From assembly GCA_903920145.1 (NCBI GenBank), contig CAIXKV010000075.1, positions 1 through 37,087 of the forward strand: a DNA stretch of 37,087 nt, read 5' to 3'. The notes under the pieces were generated by a model. It did no database searches. It was not told where the DNA came from and saw only the letters and a program-made list of their open reading frames with translations. The DNA is from an uncultured Rhodospirillales bacterium. Its GTDB lineage: Bacteria; Pseudomonadota; Alphaproteobacteria; Azospirillales; Azospirillaceae. This document shows, in pieces, positions 3,230-36,959 of this stretch. How positions within the stretch are numbered: the first letter of the stretch is position 1; each line of letters starts with the position of its first letter. The position numbers were made by a program, and so were the translations under genes.

Positions 3230-3336
3230 AAACCATCGGGCCTTGATGTTGACTCATCAAGGCTGCCCTCAGACGCCGGGCGGGCGCATCCGCGCCCCCG
3301 AGAGTCCACACACTGGGGCTTCGCGTCCATGAGCCG
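3230..3336 (+). repeat. Five-hairpin dispersed repeat, copy B (degenerate)
   Basis: The first hairpin (GCCTTGATG-ttgact-CATCAAGGC) and second hairpin (GGGCGC-atcc-GCGCCC) are intact. After them about 20 bp of unrelated sequence interrupts the element, then a partial third module (CTTCGCGTCCATGAG) follows and the rest is lost. A short CAATTG...CAATTG palindrome lies just beyond (about 3345-3362). The copy sits between the divergent gabD and Anbu genes. Confidence 0.8.
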
Positions 3337-3494
3337 CCGATATCAATTGCCCCTCTCAATTGACACCGGGCTGTTGGCGGGGCACAGTCGGGCCGCATCC
3401 AGAAACAGACGCCATGAACCACAGGGGTGACCCGGATACGGTTGGGTTACGCCTCGCGAAGCGATCGCATGGCGCCTCAAGGAAACCGCAGAGC

Positions 3495-4573: not shown

Positions 4574-5227
4574 ATGAGGCCCAAAAAAGTGATCCCCGCT
4601 TCACATCGGATCGCCGCCGTTGAAGCTTCGATTCCGTGTGGAGCCTGTACCGGCTACGCTCTCCTTGGAGGAGAACTGATTGAATCGCATCTTGACAGCC
4701 TCGAAGTGGTCGTTTCCGTCAATCCAGAAGGGGAACAATTTAAGTCTTTTCTCGTGCCGACGGGAGATGAGGCCAGAATTAGCCTGGAAGATGTGTATGT
4801 TAGGGGCGTGATGGCTGGAATCGAAGGAATGAACGAGACCCACGGCCTCCCATCGAGGGCTAGCCTTCATTTTCGCTGGGCGGCCCACGGAGAGGTCGGC
4901 TCGTCAGTCTTGATGTTTGCAATGCTGAGTCGCCTTGTTTTGCAGCTTTTAGCAGTACCAAGGGATGCCTCATACCATCGAGCCTTGATGGTGACTCATC
5001 AAGGCTGCCCTCAGACGCCGGGCGGGCGCATCCGCGCCCTTGGCTTCGCGTCCACGAGGACGCGGGGCCGCCGTCGCGGCCCGATACCGGCAGTGTGTCA
5101 TCGTTATAGCTCGCCGGTATCAGAGGAAGAGATCAGGGATATCGCCCTCGAATCAACCCGGATAGGCCAGTTTACGGCTACTTTACCGCCGAACTCCCCG
5201 CTGCGCTACAAAACCGATCCCGTATAG
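4574..5227 (+). CDS. Hypothetical protein with an embedded repeat-derived segment
   Basis: Not recognised. The ORF is 217 aa from ATG 4574 (in-frame TTG 4559 or GTG 4571 are alternatives, and no strong ribosome binding site supports any of them). The first 133 residues look like an ordinary soluble alpha/beta protein with a hydrophobic stretch near MFAMLSRLVLQLL. Then repeat copy C (4972-5120) is read in frame without a stop, giving an Arg/Gly/Pro-rich block (VTHQGCPQTPGGRIRALGF and onward). About 35 non-repeat residues follow. This could be a working gene that tolerates the insertion, or a gene broken by it whose reading frame survives by chance. An 8-codon ORF starting at ATG 4548 ends in a TGATG overlap with ATG 4574. 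Confidence 0.4.
   Translation: MRPKKVIPASHRIAAVEASIPCGACTGYALLGGELIESHLDSLEVVVSVNPEGEQFKSFLVPTGDEARISLEDVYVRGVMAGIEGMNETHGLPSRASLHFRWAAHGEVGSSVLMFAMLSRLVLQLLAVPRDASYHRALMVTHQGCPQTPGGRIRALGFASTRTRGRRRGPIPAVCHRYSSPVSEEEIRDIALESTRIGQFTATLPPNSPLRYKTDPV
4972..5120 (+). repeat. Five-hairpin dispersed repeat, copy C (inside an ORF)
   Basis: A full-length copy from ATACC to GGTAT. The hairpins in order are GCCTTGATG/CATCAAGGC, GGGCGC/GCGCCC, CGCGTCC-acga-GGACGCG, GGGCCGC-cgtc-GCGGCCC and ATACCGGC/GCCGGTAT. The third stem differs in sequence from the usual CGCGCGC-atgg-GCGCGCG, yet all seven pairs are kept. The copy lies within the ORF at 4574-5227. The flanking base is C on both sides. Confidence 0.95.
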
Positions 5228-5236
5228 CAAAAGCTT

Positions 5237-5384
5237 ATACCATCAAGCCTTGATGGTGACTCATCAAGGCTGCCCTCAGACGCCGGGCGGGCGCATCCGC
5301 GCCCTTGGCTTCGCGCCATGGGGCGCGCGGCGGCGGTCGCCGCCGATACCAACGGCACGGATCATTGTCTAGGGCCGTTGGTAT
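5237..5384 (+). repeat. Five-hairpin dispersed repeat, copy D
   Basis: Full length, from ATACC at 5237 to GGTAT at 5384, and the same subtype as copy A. Modules three to five are CGCGCC-atgg-GGCGCG, GGCGGC-ggtc-GCCGCC and an 11-bp closing stem ATACCAACGGC/GCCGTTGGTAT. All are compensated relative to other copies. It sits between the converging unknown ORF and the M15 peptidase gene, and its last base forms the third base of the peptidase stop codon. Confidence 0.95.
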
Positions 5385-6136
5385 TACGACCCCGCCAGCC
5401 CGCGACGTCGATGGTCCCATAACAAAGCCCGCCGATGCATCGCCAGACTTCGGGCTTGGGCCGGGGTCAGATGCATGGGCCGCCCTCCCATCATCACCGA
5501 CTCGCGTCCCATCGGCTGCATGGGGGCCGCGCCGCCGAAGGCCCCCCATTGCCGAACCGGCCCGACATCGACATGAATAAAATTGTGAGCGGGATAATAG
5601 CCAACACCACCGCCCCGAGCCGACAATGCCGCCCGGTGCAGCTCGTCCAACGAACAACCGGGAATACAGAAATCAATGGCTTGGCCGCGCATGTGGTAGC
5701 TATTGACCGCGACGCTTTCATCGGCCAAACGCAAAACCGAATTGGTGTGTGGCGAACGATAGCCGGACAACACCTGAAGCGTGGTATGGGCGCCGCCTCC
5801 CACCGATCGAACGATGGTAAACACCAAATCCAGCAGCCTCGAGTCGATCTCGTGATCACTGCCGTCGTGATGATCGTGGAGCAAATGGCGCACCGCCGGC
5901 ATCGCGCCGGGCACGACCCTGCCATCCAGCCCATACGGAACCGCCAACGCCTCGGCGGTATGGACATTCAGGAATGACAGAACATGGGGCGACAGCAAAT
6001 CCGCCAAACGTCCGGCAGCCTGTCCAGAACCGGCAGCCATGTCCACGGCTCCGGCAGCCATCGCCGCAGCAACACAGCGCAAAAACCGCCGCCGACTTGG
6101 CCGAAACGGTCCTTTCCACTCATCATGCCTCGTCAT
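5384..6136 (-). CDS. Tat-exported DUF882/M15-type peptidoglycan peptidase
   Basis: A 250-aa protein of the YcbK-like DUF882/peptidase M15 family. These are zinc proteins of the D-Ala-D-Ala carboxypeptidase fold, thought to act on the cell wall. The N-terminus carries a twin-arginine signal (SRRRFLR at residues 14-20, then an alanine-rich hydrophobic run), so export as a folded protein to the periplasm is expected. Zinc/active-site motifs are SGYRSPHTN, SYHMRGQAIDF (His, Asp) and the C-terminal HNFIHVDVG (His). The start at 6136 is supported by GGAGAG 5-6 nt upstream; the longer frame to 6202 is not needed. The extra C-terminal tail (about 40 residues, rich in Met and Arg) is unusual. The stop codon TAA is completed by the first base of repeat copy D. 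Confidence 0.88.
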   Translation of the reverse strand: MTRHDEWKGPFRPSRRRFLRCVAAAMAAGAVDMAAGSGQAAGRLADLLSPHVLSFLNVHTAEALAVPYGLDGRVVPGAMPAVRHLLHDHHDGSDHEIDSRLLDLVFTIVRSVGGGAHTTLQVLSGYRSPHTNSVLRLADESVAVNSYHMRGQAIDFCIPGCSLDELHRAALSARGGGVGYYPAHNFIHVDVGPVRQWGAFGGAAPMQPMGRESVMMGGRPMHLTPAQARSLAMHRRALLWDHRRRGLAGS

Positions 6137-6218
6137 TGTCTCTCCGCTCGGCGCCACGCACGACCGGAGGCCAGCCGGCCCCCCTTGAGGGAGGCCGACC
6201 AACGCACCGCAACGACGT

Positions 6219-9651: not shown

Positions 9652-9833
9652 GGGACTTTGAGTCCTAATCCTGGTGCGGAACGAGCCTATCACTGCCAGC
9701 CAACGGACGAACTGAAATGACTTGACAGCTTCCACGACGACTTGTCAAGCCACCCCCCCAACAGCCAACCAGCCCCACACGCAGGGAGCGCGGGCATCTC
9801 GCCCACCACGAGAGCTTGCCATCAACGCTTATG
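9652..9833. other. Intergenic region upstream of pat
   Basis: No gene is seen. A palindrome CTTGACA...TGTCAAG (9721-9749, loop about 15 nt) sits 70 nt upstream of the pat start and could be an operator or part of a promoter. Nothing else stands out before repeat copy E. Confidence 0.4.
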
Positions 9834-9974
9834 ATACCATCGAGCCTTGATGGTGACTCATCAAGGCTGCCCTCAGACGCCGGGCGGGCGCATCCGCGCC
9901 CTTGGCTTCGCGCGCATGGGCGCGCGGGGCCGCCGTCGCGGCCCGATAGTGTGTCATTGTTAGCTCGCCGGTAT
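9834..9974 (+). repeat. Five-hairpin dispersed repeat, copy E
   Basis: A nearly full copy between divergent genes. Modules one to four are perfect (GCCTTGATG/CATCAAGGC, GGGCGC/GCGCCC, CGCGCGC/GCGCGCG, GGGCCGC/GCGGCCC). The last hairpin has lost its left arm (CCGATAGTGTG instead of CCGATACCGGCAGTGTG) but keeps the GCCGGTAT end. The flanking base is G on both sides. Confidence 0.95.
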
Positions 9975-10223
9975 GAGTTCGTGCTCATCACGATTTGCTA
10001 TTGCCACCCTGTGGCTTGACCTTCCCCTGTAGCCTCGCCATCATGCCGGCACGAAACCGACGCCCCCCGCTATCCCTTCGAGGACTAGACGGGAGCCGAG
10101 CCTCGTGCAATGATCGCCTCCGTCAGGTAGCGATCAGATGGGTTTCGGGCGAAGTCTCTTTCAGAATCAATTCGCCCTCGGCTTGCCGTGCCCATCCTTA
10201 AAGGGAGCAATTAGGACCATCTC
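9975..10223. other. Intergenic region before the 386-aa unknown gene
   Basis: No gene is seen. The region leads into the plus-strand ORF at 10224, with TTAGGA about 9 nt before its ATG as a likely ribosome binding site. No clear promoter is visible. Confidence 0.4.
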
Positions 10224-11384
10224 ATGGCGACAACACCCGTAAAAGGATTTTCGCCCGTATTGGACGCCATCTTGCATGGAGGGTCCAGCGTCTCCATGAA
10301 TGTCATCGAGATGGCGCGGAACTTCCCGAAAGAAAAGCTCCTTTTCAGGTCCACGGCCATGAACGCCGTGGTGATCTTCAAGTTCCCCAACTTTGTTGAT
10401 GACGTTAACAAAGAGCTGATGGGCGCCTTTGGAGGACCGGGGGGTGGAGAGTATCATCCGATCGAAACCGGCGTTTATCTGCCATACTCGACCGAAGCCC
10501 CCCAGGATGGCGGATGTGCCATCTATATGAGGCAGAAAAACTATCAGCAACTTCTGGGAGATTATGTCGGACTCCCTGCCGAGGGCACTCCTGACACCAA
10601 TAATCTGAGCCAAGATATTAAGCTTCTGTCGTTGATGGATACCATTCCGTCTTTGGATCCGTTCCTGCTCAAGGAATGCTTTGACGCCAATGGGATATCC
10701 TATGATTCGTCGGTTCTCCGCCTTGATCCTCGGGAAGAAGAAGACATCAAACGGATGATCTCGGAGAAACTGTCTCCGATCGTCCAGAAAGCCTTCGACT
10801 CCGAACGGACCACCTCGAGCCGCGAGCGGCTGTTGGCAGCGCTGTGGAATCCAACCATGCCCGAAGCCCGGAACTTCGTGCGCGCCTTCGGCATCGCCGA
10901 CTCCGAAGCCGTCGCGGTGTTCACCGCATGGAAGGGCGTGACCTTCTATCAAATGCAGGTACGGGTCATTGGGCCTAGAATTCGTGAGGTTTTGGCTTGG
11001 ATGAAGTCGAAGGATTCAGTTCCTGTCGATGCCACCATGAATAAAATGTATATGCCACAACTTCAGATGTTTAATGTTAAAATTATCAGTTTGATCAATC
11101 AGAACGTTGCCGATATGCGGACTATTTTGACCCGCTATGAAAACTGCTTTGAATCCTTCATCGACGGAAACCCGAGCGAGTTGACCAACTTTCTGCGCTC
11201 GGCCCGCCAAGTCTACTACGTTCTCGGCTACTGCATCTCATCCCTGAACAGCGCCATCGCGATTTTCTTCCGGGAAATCCGGCCCCCCAGCCGGATGCGC
11301 CTGAGTTTCGAAGAGACCAACCGGCTCTATATCCGCCTCGACACCACCCTGAGCCGCAAGCGCGACGTTCCAACAAGCCTGTAG
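10224..11384 (+). CDS. Hypothetical protein, 386 aa
   Basis: Not recognised. The ORF is long and begins at an ATG with AGGA about 8-11 nt upstream. There is no signal peptide or convincing membrane span, so it should be cytoplasmic. The N-terminal 130 residues look mixed alpha/beta with Gly-rich turns (FGGPGGGEYHP); the rest appears mostly helical. The C-terminal third is rich in Met, Asn and Ile (MNKMYMPQLQMFN, IISLINQNV). The DNA coding for that part (about 11030-11130) is noticeably more AT-rich than the flanks. It ends 59 nt before the rpsD promoter and stands alone between repeat copy E and rpsD. It could be an imported gene or a poorly conserved lineage gene. Confidence 0.75.
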   Translation: MATTPVKGFSPVLDAILHGGSSVSMNVIEMARNFPKEKLLFRSTAMNAVVIFKFPNFVDDVNKELMGAFGGPGGGEYHPIETGVYLPYSTEAPQDGGCAIYMRQKNYQQLLGDYVGLPAEGTPDTNNLSQDIKLLSLMDTIPSLDPFLLKECFDANGISYDSSVLRLDPREEEDIKRMISEKLSPIVQKAFDSERTTSSRERLLAALWNPTMPEARNFVRAFGIADSEAVAVFTAWKGVTFYQMQVRVIGPRIREVLAWMKSKDSVPVDATMNKMYMPQLQMFNVKIISLINQNVADMRTILTRYENCFESFIDGNPSELTNFLRSARQVYYVLGYCISSLNSAIAIFFREIRPPSRMRLSFEETNRLYIRLDTTLSRKRDVPTSL

Positions 11385-13276: not shown

Positions 13277-13939
13277 TCAACCAGGCCGAATCCGATGGGC
13301 TTCGGTTTCGGTCACAATCCAGTCGAGTGGTTGGTCATGGGGCTCCACCGGAACGGCAGCCTGCTCCTGACCGGCAAAGGCCAGCCCCACCGCCAACACC
13401 GAGCCGTGCGACCGCAACCGCTCCAGCGTCCGATCATAATAGCCGCCGCCCTGTCCCAACCGATGGCCAGCCCGATCAAAGGCCAGCATTGGCACCAGAA
13501 TCACGGCGGGCGTCACTTCCGGGGATCCAGCCAGCGGCTCCTGGACGCCATGACGGCCAGCCACCAACGACTCGCCGACTCGCCACCGCCGAAAGCGCAA
13601 AGACGCCGAAACGCCGTCGATCACGGGCAAGGCGCAACCCCACCCCGCCGCGCCAAGCCCCTGCAACAAGGGCCGGCAATCCAACTCGGCACCAATCGGC
13701 CAGTAACCGGCCACGACCGCACCACCACCACGGCCATCAGGCACCCTCTGCAAGACACCAGCCTTGGCGACCACCGTCACCATCGCCCGCGCGGCCTGCT
13801 CGCCGCCCTGATCCCAAAGCACGCGCCGCCGACGGCGGGCGCAGCAACGCAACGCCGCCTTGATATCAGGGGCGCCACATTCTTGGTCGACGAAAGGGCT
13901 TTCGAGGGAAAAGGAAGAAGCCGCCCTGGCCGTTGGCAT
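13277..13939 (-). CDS. ygfA: 5-formyltetrahydrofolate cyclo-ligase
   Basis: A 220-aa enzyme converting 5-formyl-THF to 5,10-methenyl-THF with ATP, in one-carbon metabolism. The signature VPMLAFDRAGHRLGQGGGYY is visible (Mg-ATP and substrate loop), as are the N-terminal basic segment CARRRRRVLW and the middle segment VVAGYWPIGAELD. The start ATG 13939 has a perfect GGAGG 7 nt upstream (13947-13951). The gene directly follows the 6S RNA, the classic ssrS-ygfA arrangement. Compared with E. coli YgfA (about 180 aa) it has a longer N-terminus of roughly 20 residues. Confidence 0.95.
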   Translation of the reverse strand: MPTARAASSFSLESPFVDQECGAPDIKAALRCCARRRRRVLWDQGGEQAARAMVTVVAKAGVLQRVPDGRGGGAVVAGYWPIGAELDCRPLLQGLGAAGWGCALPVIDGVSASLRFRRWRVGESLVAGRHGVQEPLAGSPEVTPAVILVPMLAFDRAGHRLGQGGGYYDRTLERLRSHGSVLAVGLAFAGQEQAAVPVEPHDQPLDWIVTETEAHRIRPG

Positions 13940-13944
13940 TGATG

Positions 13945-14083
13945 ATCCTCCGCGACCTGCGTTTGCAGGTGGGCGCCATGTACCGGAACCAAGGGCTCCG
14001 ACAGAGACAGCTCCCGAGAGGTGTGATTATCGGCCCCGGGGATGAAATGCCTGACGCACCGGACAGCCTCTTCCCAACGCAGA
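13945..14083 (-). ncRNA. ssrS: 6S RNA (candidate)
   Basis: Position and fold both support 6S RNA, the RNA that mimics an open promoter and sequesters RNA polymerase-sigma70. It lies between zapA and 5-FCL on the same strand, the conserved location. Reading the minus strand: an outer stem CTGCGT/ACGCAG, then GG(T)GCGTCA paired with TGGCGCCC. A large bubble follows, with GGCATTTCATC on the 5' side and a small GGAGCC-ctt-GGTTCC hairpin on the 3' side. An apical rod has GGG.CCGA/TCGG..CCC and ACA.CTC-tcgg-GAG.TGT. Ends are approximate; the 3' end may overlap the 5-FCL ribosome binding site. It was folded by eye and not compared with a covariance model. Confidence 0.8.
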
Positions 14084-14700: not shown

Positions 14701-14804
14701 GGGAGACAACCGAGGCAAGAACAAACGAAAGGCGCGAAGGAAACACTTCCAAGAGCGCAATGCGCAGTTAAACCGCGTCGGTCATCGCCGTCAACAGTTC
14801 ACTC

Positions 14805-14953
14805 ATACCATCGAGCCTTGATGGTGACTCATCAAGGCTGCCCTCAGACGCCGGGCGGGCGCATCCGCGCCCTTGGCTTCGCGCGCATGGGCGCGCGGGG
14901 CCGTCGTCGCGGCCCGATACCGGCAGTGTGTCATTGTTATAGCTCGCCGGTAT
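14805..14953 (+). repeat. Five-hairpin dispersed repeat, copy F
   Basis: Full length with all five hairpins. The fourth stem is GGGCCG-tcgtcg-CGGCCC, slightly changed from copy E. It separates the zapA operon start from the NADAR gene end. Its terminal base completes the NADAR stop codon (TGA, 14953-14955). Flanking base C on both sides. Confidence 0.95.
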
Positions 14954-15444
14954 CAAAGGGCCGATGGGCCCTTTGCGGGGGCGAGCGAAGCCCGCGAAAG
15001 GCGCTCTCGCTCGGCCATCAACAGACGGCCCAGGCGGTTTTCACCAACGCCAAGCGGACATTGCCCCCAGATCCGATCGAACCAATGGTTGCCCTCGATC
15101 AATTCGGCGGTTCCAGTCGCCAAAAGCTGTTCCCTCAGTCCAGGATCAGCGAATTTCAGAGTCAGTAGGGCAGCCATAATATCGGTCTTGGCCACTTCCC
15201 AATCCGGGCGCAAAACCAAGCGCCGTCCGTTCGCTTTGGCGTCGGCAGGGTGCGGGAGGGCGGCGATCCGACGACGGCTCTCCAGATCCAGAGTCTTCGC
15301 GGCCTGAAAGGCATGCTCGACGGTGGGATAGGCGAGTCCTTCCCACAACAACGGACTCGGCGCGAAATTCGACAGAAAGGCGTAATCGTCGTCGAATTCG
15401 GTAATGGCCGGGACTGCCGGCGCAGCAGACGAAGAAGAGTCCAT
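14953..15444 (-). CDS. NADAR family protein (YbiA-like)
   Basis: A 163-aa protein of the NADAR/YbiA (DUF1768) family. Members hydrolyse N-glycosidic bonds of riboflavin-pathway intermediates or remove ADP-ribose from guanine in DNA. Key motifs are FLSNF (23-27), YPTVEHAFQAAK (39-50), NHWFDRIWG (119-127) and GENRLGRLLM. The start at 15444 (MDSSSS) is a choice; an in-frame start at 15543 exists, but that stretch is made of palindromic DNA. The last roughly 12 residues (SLAPAKGPSAL) are encoded by a palindromic repeat that recurs upstream at 15594-15645. The stop codon is completed by repeat copy F. NADAR genes are often mobile or linked to defence, but no such partner is seen here. Confidence 0.88.
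   Translation of the reverse strand: MDSSSSAAPAVPAITEFDDDYAFLSNFAPSPLLWEGLAYPTVEHAFQAAKTLDLESRRRIAALPHPADAKANGRRLVLRPDWEVAKTDIMAALLTLKFADPGLREQLLATGTAELIEGNHWFDRIWGQCPLGVGENRLGRLLMAERERLSRASLAPAKGPSAL
14955..15000 (+). repeat. Palindromic direct repeat, 3' side of the NADAR gene
   Basis: The sequence AAAGGGCC-gatg-GGCCCTTT followed by GCGGG...CCCGCGAAA. It matches the element at 15594-15645 in the same orientation (AAAGGGCCGA.. ..CCCTTTGCGGG.. ..AAGCCC.CGAAA). It encodes the C-terminal end of the NADAR protein on the minus strand. Confidence 0.75.
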
Positions 15445-15518
15445 CGACGCGAGCCCTGAGTAAAGACCGTCGGCACCACCCCCATGGACGCTAGGATAAG
15501 GCCGTTCCTCTGGCTTTC

Positions 15519-15562
15519 GCAGGGCTCCGCCCTGCACCCGCAAGGAGGCACAGCCTCCTTGA
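15519..15562. repeat. Double palindrome GCAGGGC/GCCCTGC and AAGGAGGC/GCCTCCTT
   Basis: Two adjacent perfect hairpins (7 bp, loop TCC; 8 bp, loop ACA) joined by ACCCGC. The stretch at about 143-205 has the same layout with different stem bases (GGGGGC/GCCCCC and AAGGGTC/GACCCTT joined by TGCACCCCCGCC). A single-hairpin relative lies near 4355-4372. This suggests a second, smaller palindromic family. Confidence 0.6.
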
Positions 15563-15593
15563 CCTCAAAGACATTATAGAGAAAACGTCAAGA

Positions 15594-15645
15594 CCGCAAA
15601 GGGCCGACCGGCCCTTTGCGGGTGTAGACAAAGCCCACGAAAAGC
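15594..15645 (+). repeat. Palindromic direct repeat, 5' side of the NADAR gene
   Basis: A perfect 10-bp hairpin GCAAAGGGCC-gacc-GGCCCTTTGC, followed by GGGTGTAGACAAAGCCCACG. It is the partner of the element at 14955-15000; together they bracket the NADAR gene as direct repeats. By position it could also terminate transcription between gltD and the NADAR gene, although no clear T-run follows. Confidence 0.75.
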
Positions 15646-15685
15646 TCAATCGACCTGAGCGCTCATGGGGCGTAGAGCCCTTCTG

Positions 15686-22065: not shown

Positions 22066-23862
22066 CTATCCCCTTCGTTGGGGAGGCAAACGCCAAGGCT
22101 GAGTGGCGGCCAGCCGTTGCCGACGACGTTCGCCAGCCACTTGAAACAATTCGGTCAAGGCGACCCGCACCGCAACCGGCGTACCGGGCGGACCACGGCG
22201 AGCAATCTCGGCGCGAAGCCGGATCAATTCGGCTTCGCGTTCGGCCAGTATCTCGCCGGCCCGAATGACTCCGCGTCGGGTCTCCTCCAGGTCAGCATCA
22301 AAGGCCTGCTGCCGTTCGAGGGTCTGCGTCAAAGCGCCATCAAGGTCGGCGATCCGACCATTCACGGCATCCAACTCGGCCTGGGCGGTTTTGACCCGTT
22401 CGCCAAGCTCATCGAGCAGAGCTTGGAATTCGGCAGCCCGGCGATCTCGTTCGGCCAAAGCCAGTTCCAGCTCGCCGGCCAAACGGTCGCGCGTCGCCAA
22501 CTCGGCATTCAGCGCCAAAACTCGGCGATCCCGCTCGACCAAGGCCGTTTCCAGCTCGCCAACCCGCTGGGCGCGAGCCGCAAGATCGGCGTCCAGCACC
22601 AAAACCCGGTTATCCCGTTCGGCCAAGGCCGCTTCCAGCTCGCCAACCCGCTGGGCGCGAGCCGCAAGATCGGCGTCCAGCACCAAAACCCGGCTGTCTC
22701 GCTCGGCCAAGGCTCGTTCCAGCTCACCGACCCGCTGGGCGCGGGCCGCAAGATCAGCATCCAACGCCGAAACCCGGTTATCCCGTTCGGCCAAGGCCGC
22801 TTCCAGCGCACCAATCCGGCAATCCCGCTCGGCCAAGACCGCATCCAGCCCCAAAGCGTGGCGATCCCGTTCCGCCAAAGCCGCTTCCGACAGATGCGCT
22901 TGCCGATCCTGTTCGGCAACAACGGCATCCAACTCTTGAATCCGACGATCCCGCTCAACCAGGGCCGCTTGCGAGACCTCCGCTTGCCGATCTCGTTCCG
23001 CGACCACGGCATCTAACTCTTGAATCCGACGGTCCCGCTCAACCAGGGCGGCTTGCGAGACCTCCGCTTGCCGATCTCGTTCCGCGACCACGGCATCTAA
23101 CTCTTGAATCCGACGATCCCGCTCAACCAGGGCGGCTTCTCCGTCCCGAGCCTGCCGATCCCGCTCGGCCAGCACGGCATCCAGCGCCAGAACCCGCAAG
23201 TCGCGCTCACCGAGATTCGCCTCAAGCGCGCCAATCTGGAGGTTGCGTTCGGCCAACACGGAGTCCAGGCTCGAGACGCGCCGGTCACGGTCGGATAAAG
23301 CGGCCTCAAGCGCCACCACCTGCCGATCACGATCGGAGAGAGCCTCCCCGGCCTGAACGGCCTCATCGTTGGCCTGGGCCAAGGCCGCCGTCAGTTGCTC
23401 GATGGTGGCCCGCAAATCCAGATAGGCGTCGACGTCTTGAACGCCGGCCTCCGGCACCGATTCCGGCGCCGCTTCACCGACGGGAGCGATCGCCGACGCC
23501 TCGAGAGCAACAGACCGACGAGCCAGCGCCGCCTCCAGCGCAGCAATCCGATCGTCACGCTCGACCGCCGCCGCTGCGGCTTCGTTTTTGGCCTGAACAG
23601 CCTCGTCCTTGGCCTGGGCCAAAGCCGCCGTCATTTGCTCGATAGTGACTCGCAGGTCCAGATAGGCGTCGACGTCCCCCACCCCGGAGTCAACGGGCTC
23701 TCCAGAGTCAAGGCCGCCCTGAACGTCACGCCCTCGGGCGTTTTTGGCTCCTTTGGCGGCTTTCTTGCCTCCCCGACGACCAAAGCCGTCGCTCCGGACT
23801 TCTGAATCCGCCGCGCCGCCAGCCTTGCCTTCGGCGTTTTTCACTACCGGTTGTTTCGCCAT
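22066..23862 (-). CDS. Long repetitive coiled-coil protein, 598 aa
   Basis: Function unknown. The N-terminal 50 residues are basic and Gly/Ala/Lys-rich (RRGGKKAAKGAKNARG), suggesting DNA, membrane or polymer contact. Next, a module containing DVDAYLDLR, TIEQ and TAALAQA occurs twice (about 64-94 and 142-172), evidently duplicated. From about 180 to 500 the protein is built of degenerate 14/28-residue units of the type ALAERDRRVxxLDAxL, forming a long continuous coiled coil. In DNA these are 84-bp tandem units, some nearly identical (22933, 23017 and 23101; 22593, 22677 and 22761). The C-terminus is a basic tail (ERRRQRLAATQPWRLPPQRRG). No signal peptide or membrane span is present. It could be a cytoskeletal or scaffold protein. 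Copy number probably varies between strains through slippage. Confidence 0.85.
   Translation of the reverse strand: MAKQPVVKNAEGKAGGAADSEVRSDGFGRRGGKKAAKGAKNARGRDVQGGLDSGEPVDSGVGDVDAYLDLRVTIEQMTAALAQAKDEAVQAKNEAAAAAVERDDRIAALEAALARRSVALEASAIAPVGEAAPESVPEAGVQDVDAYLDLRATIEQLTAALAQANDEAVQAGEALSDRDRQVVALEAALSDRDRRVSSLDSVLAERNLQIGALEANLGERDLRVLALDAVLAERDRQARDGEAALVERDRRIQELDAVVAERDRQAEVSQAALVERDRRIQELDAVVAERDRQAEVSQAALVERDRRIQELDAVVAEQDRQAHLSEAALAERDRHALGLDAVLAERDCRIGALEAALAERDNRVSALDADLAARAQRVGELERALAERDSRVLVLDADLAARAQRVGELEAALAERDNRVLVLDADLAARAQRVGELETALVERDRRVLALNAELATRDRLAGELELALAERDRRAAEFQALLDELGERVKTAQAELDAVNGRIADLDGALTQTLERQQAFDADLEETRRGVIRAGEILAEREAELIRLRAEIARRGPPGTPVAVRVALTELFQVAGERRRQRLAATQPWRLPPQRRG
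22590..22800. repeat. 84-bp tandem repeats within the coiled-coil gene, block 1
   Basis: Successive units start near 22593, 22677 and 22761 and share CCAGCACCAAAACCCGG-type starts, exactly 84 bp apart. The unit codes for 28 residues (four heptads), so gain or loss of a unit keeps both frame and coiled-coil register. Confidence 0.85.
22933..23140. repeat. 84-bp tandem repeats within the coiled-coil gene, block 2
   Basis: Units start at 22933, 23017 and 23101 (CTCTTGAATCCGACG...), 84 bp apart. The first two differ at only a few bases, implying recent duplication or ongoing homogenisation. Confidence 0.9.
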
Positions 23863-33288: not shown

Positions 33289-33894
33289 ATGTCCGATTCT
33301 GCTGTGCTGACCCCCATCACCCCTGAAACCCTCGCCTCAACCCTGCCACCCGACCAGGATCTCTGGATATTCGGCTATGGTTCGTTGATGTGGGATCCAG
33401 GCTTTCCGTTTGTGGCTCACGAGACCGGCATTTTGCGGGGCTATCATCGCCGCTTTTGCATTTACTCGACCCGCCACCGTGGCACGCCAGAACGTCCGGG
33501 CCTCGTGTTCGGCCTCGACCATGGCGGTTCGTGCCGGGGCATGGTGTTCCGAGTCGCCGCCAAGGAGATTGCGCCGGTTCTGGACTATCTTTGGGGACGA
33601 GAAATGTCGTCCCATGTCTACCGGCCCAAACTGCTTCCGGTGCTCTTGGAAAGCGGTCGCCGGGTTTCGGCCTGTGCCTTTGTGGTGGATCGAAGCCATC
33701 CCCAATACTGCCGGGATATTGACTTGGAACGGTCGGTGGCCCTGATCCGGGCGGGAATCGGAGGACGTGGTCCCAATATCGACTATTTGACCAACACGGT
33801 CGAACATCTCTCCCAACTCGGGATTGTTGACCACGGCTTGAAGGCGTTGTTGGCAGCGGTGACGAAGCCAACGGATTATGCCGGCAAGCCATAA
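33289..33894 (+). CDS. chaC: ChaC-like gamma-glutamylcyclotransferase
   Basis: A 201-aa cytoplasmic enzyme of the ChaC family, which splits glutathione into 5-oxoproline and Cys-Gly. The substrate loop WIFGYGSLMWDPGF, the segment RGYHRRFCIYSTRHRGT, and the catalytic glutamate in YLWGREM are visible, along with the C-terminal GRGPNIDYLTNTVEHL motif. Length is as expected. The last residues (YAGKP) and the stop codon are encoded by the diverged end of repeat copy G, so the C-terminus has been re-formed by the insertion. Confidence 0.92.
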   Translation: MSDSAVLTPITPETLASTLPPDQDLWIFGYGSLMWDPGFPFVAHETGILRGYHRRFCIYSTRHRGTPERPGLVFGLDHGGSCRGMVFRVAAKEIAPVLDYLWGREMSSHVYRPKLLPVLLESGRRVSACAFVVDRSHPQYCRDIDLERSVALIRAGIGGRGPNIDYLTNTVEHLSQLGIVDHGLKALLAAVTKPTDYAGKP

Positions 33895-34027
33895 CGATAA
33901 CACGTTGCCGGTCCTCGGGTTGCGACGGCGGCCCCGCGCGCCCATGCGCGCGAAGCCAAGGGCGCGGATGCGCCCGCCCGGCGTCTGAGGGCAGCCTTGA
34001 TGAGTCACCATCAAGGCTCGATGGTAT
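33878..34027 (-). repeat. Five-hairpin dispersed repeat, copy G (inverted)
   Basis: A full-length copy in the opposite orientation between the converging chaC and MoxR genes. Read on the minus strand it runs ATACCATCGAGCC... through intact modules one to three. In module four the plus strand reads GGGTTGC-gacg-GCGGCCC, so pairing on that strand is kept through G-T pairs. The far end is diverged (ATGCCGGCAAGCCATAACG against ATACCGGCGAGCTATAACA) and overlaps the last codons and stop of chaC. Confidence 0.9.
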
Positions 34028-34035
34028 AACGGGTC

Positions 34036-35983: not shown

Positions 35984-36117
35984 CCGAAGCTCCGTCGGGA
36001 ACCTAAGCTGCAGTAGGGGAAACCGCGCTCAGGCGATCGTGCGATGGCGTTACGATCACTTCTGAAGAGTGAGATTGCAACGATCTGACCGATTTCCAAT
36101 GCAAATGCGGTATGGCA

Positions 36118-36186
36118 GCTTCGCGCGCGGGGCCGCCGTCGCGGCCCGAGGACCGGCGATGTGTCAGTATCAGGGCTCGCCGGTCT
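36118..36186 (+). repeat. Five-hairpin dispersed repeat, copy H (partial)
   Basis: Only modules three (internally deleted), four and five remain. Module four is GGGCCGC-cgtc-GCGGCCC. Module five is ACCGGCG...CGCCGGT with a G-C pair (GGACC/GGTCT) where other copies have T-A (GATACC/GGTATC), a clear compensatory change. Its edge forms the stop codon of the membrane-protein gene on the minus strand. Confidence 0.85.
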
Positions 36187-36959
36187 CAAGGAAGGCCGGC
36201 GGCCAGGGTCAAAACCAGAAATAGGGAGGCCCCCACCAGAAACTCGGCAACCTCGGTGCCTTGTTTCAAATAGGGCTGATCGGAAGGAAGGCGCCAGCCG
36301 ATCTCATAGGCCGGGAACAGTCCGGTCAGGATCGCCCATCCCAAACCAGGATCAAAGGCCAAAGCCGGGGCCACAATGAGCGTTGCCCGTATCAGTTCAA
36401 TTTCGCTGGAGCCGGCATAATGCCAAAGCTCCTTGCGCCAGGATGGCCACGCTCGGTCATAGGGGCCAAAGACCGTTTCAAGCCAATCGGTCAGAGGCGT
36501 GGTTTGCCGGTAGTCGGCGGGTTCATCATCCAGGCCGGCACCACTGCGCTGGTGTGCAGCATGTCCGAAAAGCTGCCCGGCGAAGGTCGTTCCGGCAACG
36601 AGAGGTGCCAACCACCATGCCCCAGCAAGACCTGCCACCAACAGGCCGGTGGGCACCGCCCACACGAGGCGCGCGCCTTGGGTGCCAATCCCCAAGTCCA
36701 AGGCTCCGCCCCGTTGCCGATAGAGCATGCCTCCGGCCATGGCGGTTCCCGAGACCGCCGCCATGGGCAACAGCACCGGAGCGCATCCCGATGGAGTCGT
36801 GATCAGCAGGGCGAGAATCAGCAGTCGCGCCAGCCGGTTGTGCCATTGGGCCGGTGTCTGTGTACGTGTACGCGCCGATGTACGTGTGCATGGGGGCGCG
36901 GGGCCGTCGTCGCGGCCCGATACCGGCAGTGTGTCATCGTTATAGCTCGCCGGTATCAT
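36186..36959 (-). CDS. Hypothetical membrane protein bounded by repeats
   Basis: Not recognised. The 257-aa ORF has several hydrophobic segments. About 45-60 (LILALLITTPSGCAP) could be a signal anchor or lipoprotein signal. About 95-125 is a Trp/Ala/Leu-rich span, about 185-215 an IVAPALAFDPGLGWAILTG stretch, and the C-terminus ends FLVGASLFLVLTLAAGLP. The only in-frame ATG before the hydrophobic region is 36957-36959. It is formed at the junction of repeat copies I and J, so the first roughly 24 residues (MIPASYNDDTLPVSG...) are repeat-encoded. The stop codon is at the edge of copy H. Either the repeats replaced the native ends or the real gene uses an unconventional start. Confidence 0.6.
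   Translation of the reverse strand: MIPASYNDDTLPVSGRDDGPAPPCTRTSARTRTQTPAQWHNRLARLLILALLITTPSGCAPVLLPMAAVSGTAMAGGMLYRQRGGALDLGIGTQGARLVWAVPTGLLVAGLAGAWWLAPLVAGTTFAGQLFGHAAHQRSGAGLDDEPADYRQTTPLTDWLETVFGPYDRAWPSWRKELWHYAGSSEIELIRATLIVAPALAFDPGLGWAILTGLFPAYEIGWRLPSDQPYLKQGTEVAEFLVGASLFLVLTLAAGLP
36886..36956 (+). repeat. Five-hairpin dispersed repeat, copy I (partial)
   Basis: Modules four (GGGCCG...CGGCCC) and five (ATACCGGC...GCCGGTAT) are intact. Module three is degraded (GTGTGCATGGGGGCGCGGGG). It abuts copy J with only a single C between them, so this is a tandem pair. Next to it is a short GTACGTGTACGC/GTACGTGTGC near-repeat (about 36860-36890). Confidence 0.85.

Follow-up and report, generated by a model that had tools for sequence, protein, structure and literature searches.

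A dispersed hairpin repeat of the uncultured Rhodospirillales bacterium studied here is very probably a non-autonomous, MITE-like DNA transposon that duplicates a TNA triplet at its target, as judged by comparing its copies within this genome and among relatives. It is short, non-coding and dispersed in high copy number, it has terminal inverted repeats and a target duplication, and a precise empty site is found in a relative. Its transposition and the TNA duplication place it with MITE-like elements rather than with REP/RAYT elements, and it represents an unnamed and oddly structured kind of miniature transposon. Nearly 600 copies, amounting to up to ~2% of the genome, have accumulated in a single lineage.

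Copies in the Window and Anatomy of the Element

The window is the whole stretch of DNA that was analyzed, 37,087 nucleotides long. An earlier note on this DNA had listed ten copies of the repeat. All ten are confirmed; eight of them have a full core and two are 3′-half fragments. A covariance model of the core recovered eight full cores in the window (E 6e-7 to 1e-16), at 274, 3266, 5008, 5273, 9870, 14841, 33917 (minus strand) and 36994, and one partial core at 36881-36918 (E 0.018); the fragment near 36118 was picked up only by a direct-repeat and inverted-repeat search.

The named copy (4970-5122, plus strand) consists of TCA at 4970-4972, TACC...GGTA at 4973-5119 and TCA at 5120-5122. Matching target repeats also flank the plus-strand copies at 5235-5386 (TTA/TTA), which has a type-B right end, at 9832-9976 (TGA/TGA) and at 14803-14955 (TCA/TCA), and the inverted copy at 33876-34029 (minus strand) has flanks TTA/TAA that do not match. 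Other plus-strand copies are a divergent one with a type-B left end (239-380) and one with an altered 3′ half, the CCGAGAGTCCACACACTGGGG insert variant (3230-3360). The two fragments, both on the plus strand, comprise hairpins C-E (36117-36186, from the repeat search) and hairpins D-E (36881-36955); the latter ends in GGTA and is followed directly by TCA and the next copy, which is truncated by the contig end (36959-37087, plus strand).

Full-length copies, aligned from 1.31 Mb of the host genome, share the order TNA, TACC, hairpins 1-A-B, TTGGCTT, hairpins C-D-E, GGTA, TNA. The element encodes no protein and has no coding capacity, is dispersed on both strands and is about 149 bases long (mostly ~139-170 bp), in agreement with the size of about 150 bp proposed earlier. 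Other parts of that first description need refinement: the ends read as ATACC and GGTAT are in fact TACC...GGTA borders with TNA direct repeats outside them, and the multi-hairpin layout stands with six hairpins instead of five, the sixth being a weak, invariant 4-bp GCCC/GGGC hairpin between the first and second hairpins of the earlier note.

In the named copy, all on the plus strand, the left terminal hairpin 1 (4981-5006; GAGCCTTGATG / CATCAAGGCT) has GACTC in its loop and is followed by hairpin A (5007-5023; GCCC-TCAGACGCC-GGGC), which is near-invariant class-wide, and by hairpin B (5024-5039; GGGCGC-ATCC-GCGCCC), in which compensatory changes occur between genera. The conserved linker TTGGCTT (5040-5046) leads to hairpins C (5047-5064; CGCGTCC-ACGA-GGACGCG) and D (5065-5082; GGGCCGC-CGTC-GCGGCCC), both with compensatory changes, and the right terminal hairpin E (5083-5119; ATACCGGC...GCCGGTA) is an imperfect inverted repeat of the left end. 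Hairpins 1 and E are thus mutual imperfect inverted repeats (e.g., TACCATCGGGCCTTGATGGTGACTCATC / TACCGGCGAGCCCTGATACTGACACATC); the terminal inverted repeats TACC/GGTA are present, and the extended, imperfect repeat scored above all 200 shuffles in four of the seven copies tested. The core has a G+C content of 76-84%, and the sequence at 4970-5122 folds much better than dinucleotide shuffles, with z -5.1 for RNA, z -5.6 for DNA and 0 of 200 shuffles as good.

These parts behave as freely combining modules: the left end comes in two types and the right end in two or three, C/D has several variants, and there is an insert variant, CC(T/G)AGAGTCCACACAC; tandem copies and fragments are also present. 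In addition, single-hairpin versions of 41-54 bp occur, and because some of them have matching TNA repeats, they suggest that a terminal hairpin alone may suffice for mobility.

GANTC, the recognition site of the cell-cycle methylase CcrM, is present in the left hairpin region of 36 of the 45 full-length host copies (e.g., GACTC at window 4993-4997) and in none of six left ends of copies from two other species. As a separate observation, the Azospirillum ramasamyi plasmid NZ_CP029835.1 carries a single 54-bp terminal hairpin between TGA/TGA repeats (L237:39667-39720), a minimal mobile form.

Several other features of the window are recorded here. A second dispersed hairpin repeat, CAAAGGGCCGACCGGCCCTTTGCGGG...CCCACGAAAAGC, occurs at 14954-15009 and 15480-15652, with dozens of copies in the same-genus genome G003 and others in G001. 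Tandem repeats of 84 bp (28-residue units) at 22437-23276 lie within ORF 22066-23862 (minus strand), a long coding frame that weakly matches coiled-coil/SMC-like profiles, and a 6S RNA (RF00013) is found at 13914-14072 (minus strand, 78.8 bits).

Transposition with Target-Site Duplication

A 3-bp direct repeat, TNA, flanks the element. Among the 37 copies with intact NAT-ACC...GGT-ATNA ends, 26 have the same N on the left and on the right, compared with a permuted mean of 11.4, and 0 of 20,000 permutations reached 26. Since the match is that of a direct and not of a complementary repeat, base pairing cannot explain it. The repeats are found beyond the host as well: copies in A. ramasamyi have TCA/TCA, TGA/TGA and TGA/TGA, three copies in Azospirillum sp. 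RU38E have TTA, TGA and TAA, and TTA/TTA flanks a copy (L220) from a more distant family.

Nesting provides a second line of evidence. At locus L133 (~10443-10595), one copy lies precisely within hairpin A of another, where the TCA of that hairpin served as the insertion target and is duplicated, giving the junction CCCTCA / TACC...GGTA / TCAGACGCC (slashes mark the borders of the inner copy). The corresponding empty site is the uninterrupted CCCTCAGACGCC, known from hundreds of copies.

Synteny of the window with the same-genus genomes is too broken to look for empty sites there, and other insertion sites were therefore used, the joined flanks of three of them being searched in four same-genus genomes. 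At L055:1216-1367, the host has TTA-element-TTA, whereas G003 has CTCTTACCCC with a single TTA, and G001 (the uncultured Rhodospirillales MAG AM-2014_bin-1497) has contiguous sequence, also without the element. At a second joined-flank site (L056:2737), the relative carries other DNA. Taken together, the matching TNA repeats, the nested insertion and the orthologous empty site indicate that the element transposes with target-site duplication. Of the options raised in the earlier note, that of a non-autonomous mobile element is consequently well supported.

Copy Number and Lineage-Specific Expansion

In the host draft (4,260,553 bases, 269 contigs), the 32-base core with at most three mismatches has 582 matches, 261 on one strand and 321 on the other, and the reversed control has none. 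The copies are therefore not confined to the window. The high density described earlier is real, but with about one copy per 7.3 kb genome-wide, the window is typical of its own genome and not exceptional in it.

With the same mismatch limit, the core was found in 24 of the 145 genomes searched. Judged by identical positions, relative genus g2 corresponds to Nitrospirillum (BR 12005) and g12 to Azospirillum sp. RU38E, which suggests that the host is an Azospirillaceae-type bacterium. The four same-genus genomes have only 0-5 copies and none of the 145 relatives has more than 50, so the expansion in the host is lineage-specific. It has also shaped the assembly: element sequence lies within 200 bp of the contig end at 63 of the 104 ends examined, vs. 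~3% of random 200-bp stretches, which makes the element the main reason that the assembly is fragmented into hundreds of pieces.

Insertion Sites Relative to Genes

Insertions are mostly intergenic, with an excess at stop codons and at the 3′ ends of genes. Based on simple ORF calls, 31 of 78 intergenic cores away from contig edges lie between convergent genes, compared with 97 of 512 gaps overall (Fisher p 3e-6). Given this enrichment, the earlier suggestion of a transcript-end or mRNA-stability element is compatible with the data only as a side effect.

Whatever its middle base, TNA reads as a stop codon on one of the two strands (TAA/TGA, or the complements TTA/TCA). Insertions at the last codon of a gene would therefore be harmless, and for that reason such insertions would persist, a trick that rests on this property of the target. 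At 10 of 49 clean sites, an ORF of at least 150 codons has the target triplet as its stop codon, whereas 3.5 such sites would be expected judging by TNA sites within 150 bp (p ~0.002). Two cases are in the window: ORF 5384-6202 (minus strand) stops at the right TTA (5384-5386) of the copy at 5235-5386, and ORF 14953-15543 (minus strand) stops at the right TCA (14953-14955) of the copy at 14803-14955. Strong targeting of stop codons was considered and is weakened by this local control, as the enrichment (10 vs. 3.5) leaves most insertions elsewhere. Separately, a full element in A. ramasamyi NZ_CP029832.1 (L194:299-460) lies inside an annotated "hypothetical protein" CDS, WP_162630128.1, where it may be read through as protein or be mis-annotated.

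Class-Wide Conservation of the Core

Cores from Azospirillaceae, Kiloniellales, Magnetospirillum and another Rhodospirillales MAG were aligned (n = 17). Near-invariant across the class are CCCTCANNCGCCGGGC and TTGGCTT; thus hairpin A and the linker hardly change, while hairpins B, C, and D vary in compensating pairs. In the 17 cores, 91.7% of cells are paired and two-sided changes occur in 12 pairs (38 cells), giving a covariation score of 0.265; shuffles score 0.070 and slid partners no more than 0.089 (0 of 500). The full-length alignment agrees with this result. One-sided changes are rare, being found in one cell of the core alignment and in nine, vs. 44 two-sided, of the full-length alignment, and their near absence suggests that hairpin arms are replaced whole, or that selection acts on the structure as DNA. 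Between genera, the MAFFT alignment of hairpins 1 and E is structurally inconsistent, and we therefore claim covariation only for A-D, and for E in part.

A class-wide search with the covariance model R1, in which 12 matches per genome were scored, found the core in at least 31 of 385 alphaproteobacterial genomes (E at most 1e-5), which belong to many families. Outside Azospirillaceae, many cores are without TACC/GGTA ends and adjoin stop or start codons or form tandem arrays.

As a rule, a bacterial MITE is derived, at the species level, from a single insertion sequence, and the interior of a passive MITE need not stay conserved across families. Here, by contrast, many alphaproteobacterial families have kept the same hairpin architecture, with stem changes that compensate each other and an invariant hairpin, and from the aligned cores the two-sided covariation and the invariant hairpin appear to exceed what a passive MITE interior should show. 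We tentatively consider, as a possibility with the odds against it, that the class-wide module (hairpin A, TTGGCTT and covarying B-D) is under selection for a role in its own right, such as that of a signal in folded DNA or RNA which a conserved alphaproteobacterial protein recognizes, and has been repeatedly packaged into TNA-duplicating hairpin transposons.

A related alternative, similarly doubtful, is that the core (A-D) might be primarily a functional RNA or DNA signal, namely a transcript 3′-end or intercistronic stability element or a protein-binding site, which was captured by a transposon in some lineages. The near-invariance of hairpin A and TTGGCTT, the covarying B-D and the distribution over many families would fit such a signal, as would the enrichment in convergent gaps and the several genomes in which cores devoid of TACC/GGTA ends lie just past stop codons or just ahead of start codons. 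However, copies in different genomes adjoin unrelated genes and form tandem arrays, as mobile debris would, and the covariation is nearly all two-sided, with G-U intermediates almost absent (38 vs. 1 cells), a pattern that the exchange of whole palindromic arms fits as well as RNA selection. The element is also well suited to studying how palindromic modules are kept intact.

Proposed Mechanism and Search for a Transposase

For such a MITE-like transposon, a DDE transposase supplied in trans would recognize the terminal hairpins, cut TNA with a 3-bp stagger and then insert the element, and, where the last codon of a gene was the target, the duplication of TNA would restore the stop. Conserved hairpins A-D would help the element, e.g., as a single-stranded DNA, cruciform or RNA structure that would be bound, for example, by the transposase or by host proteins. 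It is also plausible, with less confidence, that the enzyme would be related to the IS1031 group of the IS5 family.

The earlier note had proposed to look for a transposase with matching ends, and none was found in host contigs of at least ~3 kb or in the relatives' loci. In these host contigs, the PF13340 profile had no hits; PF01609 had five host hits, which we read as another IS type and which lack matching TACC/GGTA ends in their flanks; PF13586 had one fragment in the host, and no matching flanks in the loci examined in 30 relatives. Within 1.3 Mb of host sequence, pairs of TNATACC...GGTATNA located 400-3000 bp apart showed no clear excess of equal N, and a self-comparison for repeats of >500 bp returned only the tandem repeat of the window itself. 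An autonomous copy is likewise absent from a whole 290-kb A. ramasamyi plasmid. A collapsed multi-copy insertion sequence would sit in host contigs of less than ~3 kb, which were masked as N.

It is very unlikely that the repeat is instead a REP/BIME/REPIN element spread by a RAYT, the IS200/IS605-type single-strand tyrosine transposase. Hairpins, intergenic positions and high copy number would be expected of such an element, and the host does have one RAYT-like Y1 transposase gene (L246; G000:C169:9982-10302) and one IS605-type TnpA gene (L243; G000:C266:16591-16953), with none in three same-genus genomes. Y1 transposition, however, is not known to make a target duplication, and here a 3-bp duplication is present. 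Moreover, no copy of the element lies within ~1.3-1.5 kb of the RAYT or TnpA gene in either direction, the size classes range from 41 to 171 bp, and the ends are TACC/GGTA, not GTAG/CGTC tags (PMC3733652). Because these genes are not flanked by the element, a target duplication exists and the tags are absent, we reject RAYT and IS605 as the mobilizer. Most improbable is that the repeat was spread by nothing more than homologous recombination, gene conversion or replication slippage, with no transposase involved. Such spread would account for mosaic hairpin modules, tandem copies and fragments, but the target duplications refute it as the sole mechanism; it can explain neither the correlated TNA repeats found at unrelated sites nor the precise nesting of one copy in another and the precisely empty orthologous site. 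Very likely, recombination, gene conversion or slippage also operates on the MITE-like transposon, shuffling its modules.

Comparison with Known Families

The earlier note had allowed that the repeat might prove to be an already named REP, BIME or MITE family, and no such match emerged in Rfam or by sequence in the literature. No family of Rfam 15 matched the element at gathering (best E 0.74, far under the gathering score of that family). Searches of open-access text by name and by core sequence returned nothing relevant, subscription papers possibly differing, and the sole 14-mer match to the core was an unrelated Klebsiella paper.

Regarding the target, the element resembles the IS1031 group of the IS5 family, which uses TNA and makes exclusively 3-bp direct repeats (PMC12016507). 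However, its ends are TACC..., whereas the terminal inverted repeat of the published member of this group is GAACCTG... (PMC12016507), and no transposase of the group was found in host contigs of at least ~3 kb. Because the ends differ, we do not claim membership.

REP, BIME and REPIN elements are likewise palindromic, dispersed, intergenic, mostly located at gene 3′ ends and present in Alphaproteobacteria, in which CGTC-tagged REPs are known (PMC3733652). They are tagged hairpins of 20-40 bp that are moved without target duplication, whereas our element has no GTAG or CGTC-AT tag-stem, has six hairpins and a TNA duplication, and at ~149 bp is larger than a classical REP, as had been pointed out from the start.

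CIR elements of Caulobacter and Brucella have a linker between two arms and carry GANTC as a conserved mark (PMC2229807). Like them, the element is alphaproteobacterial, forms hairpins and has GANTC in a loop (36/45 host copies), and CIR elements are of ~110 bp; GANTC is, however, not kept across species in our element (0/6 elsewhere), which is set apart by the description of CIR and not by alignment.

The bacterial MITEs ERIC/IRU, Correia/NEMIS and RUP are the closest in general form, being less than 200 bp, protein-free and intergenic, with terminal inverted repeats, a target duplication and a structured transcript (PMC2229807), all of which the element shares. These families are mostly A+T-rich, with TA termini and a long end-to-end stem (PMC2229807). 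In contrast to their TA target, TNA is duplicated here, a separation made by description and not by sequence, and the element further differs from ERIC, Correia and RUP in its G+C-rich core, its 3-bp duplication, its six separate hairpins and its exchangeable modules.
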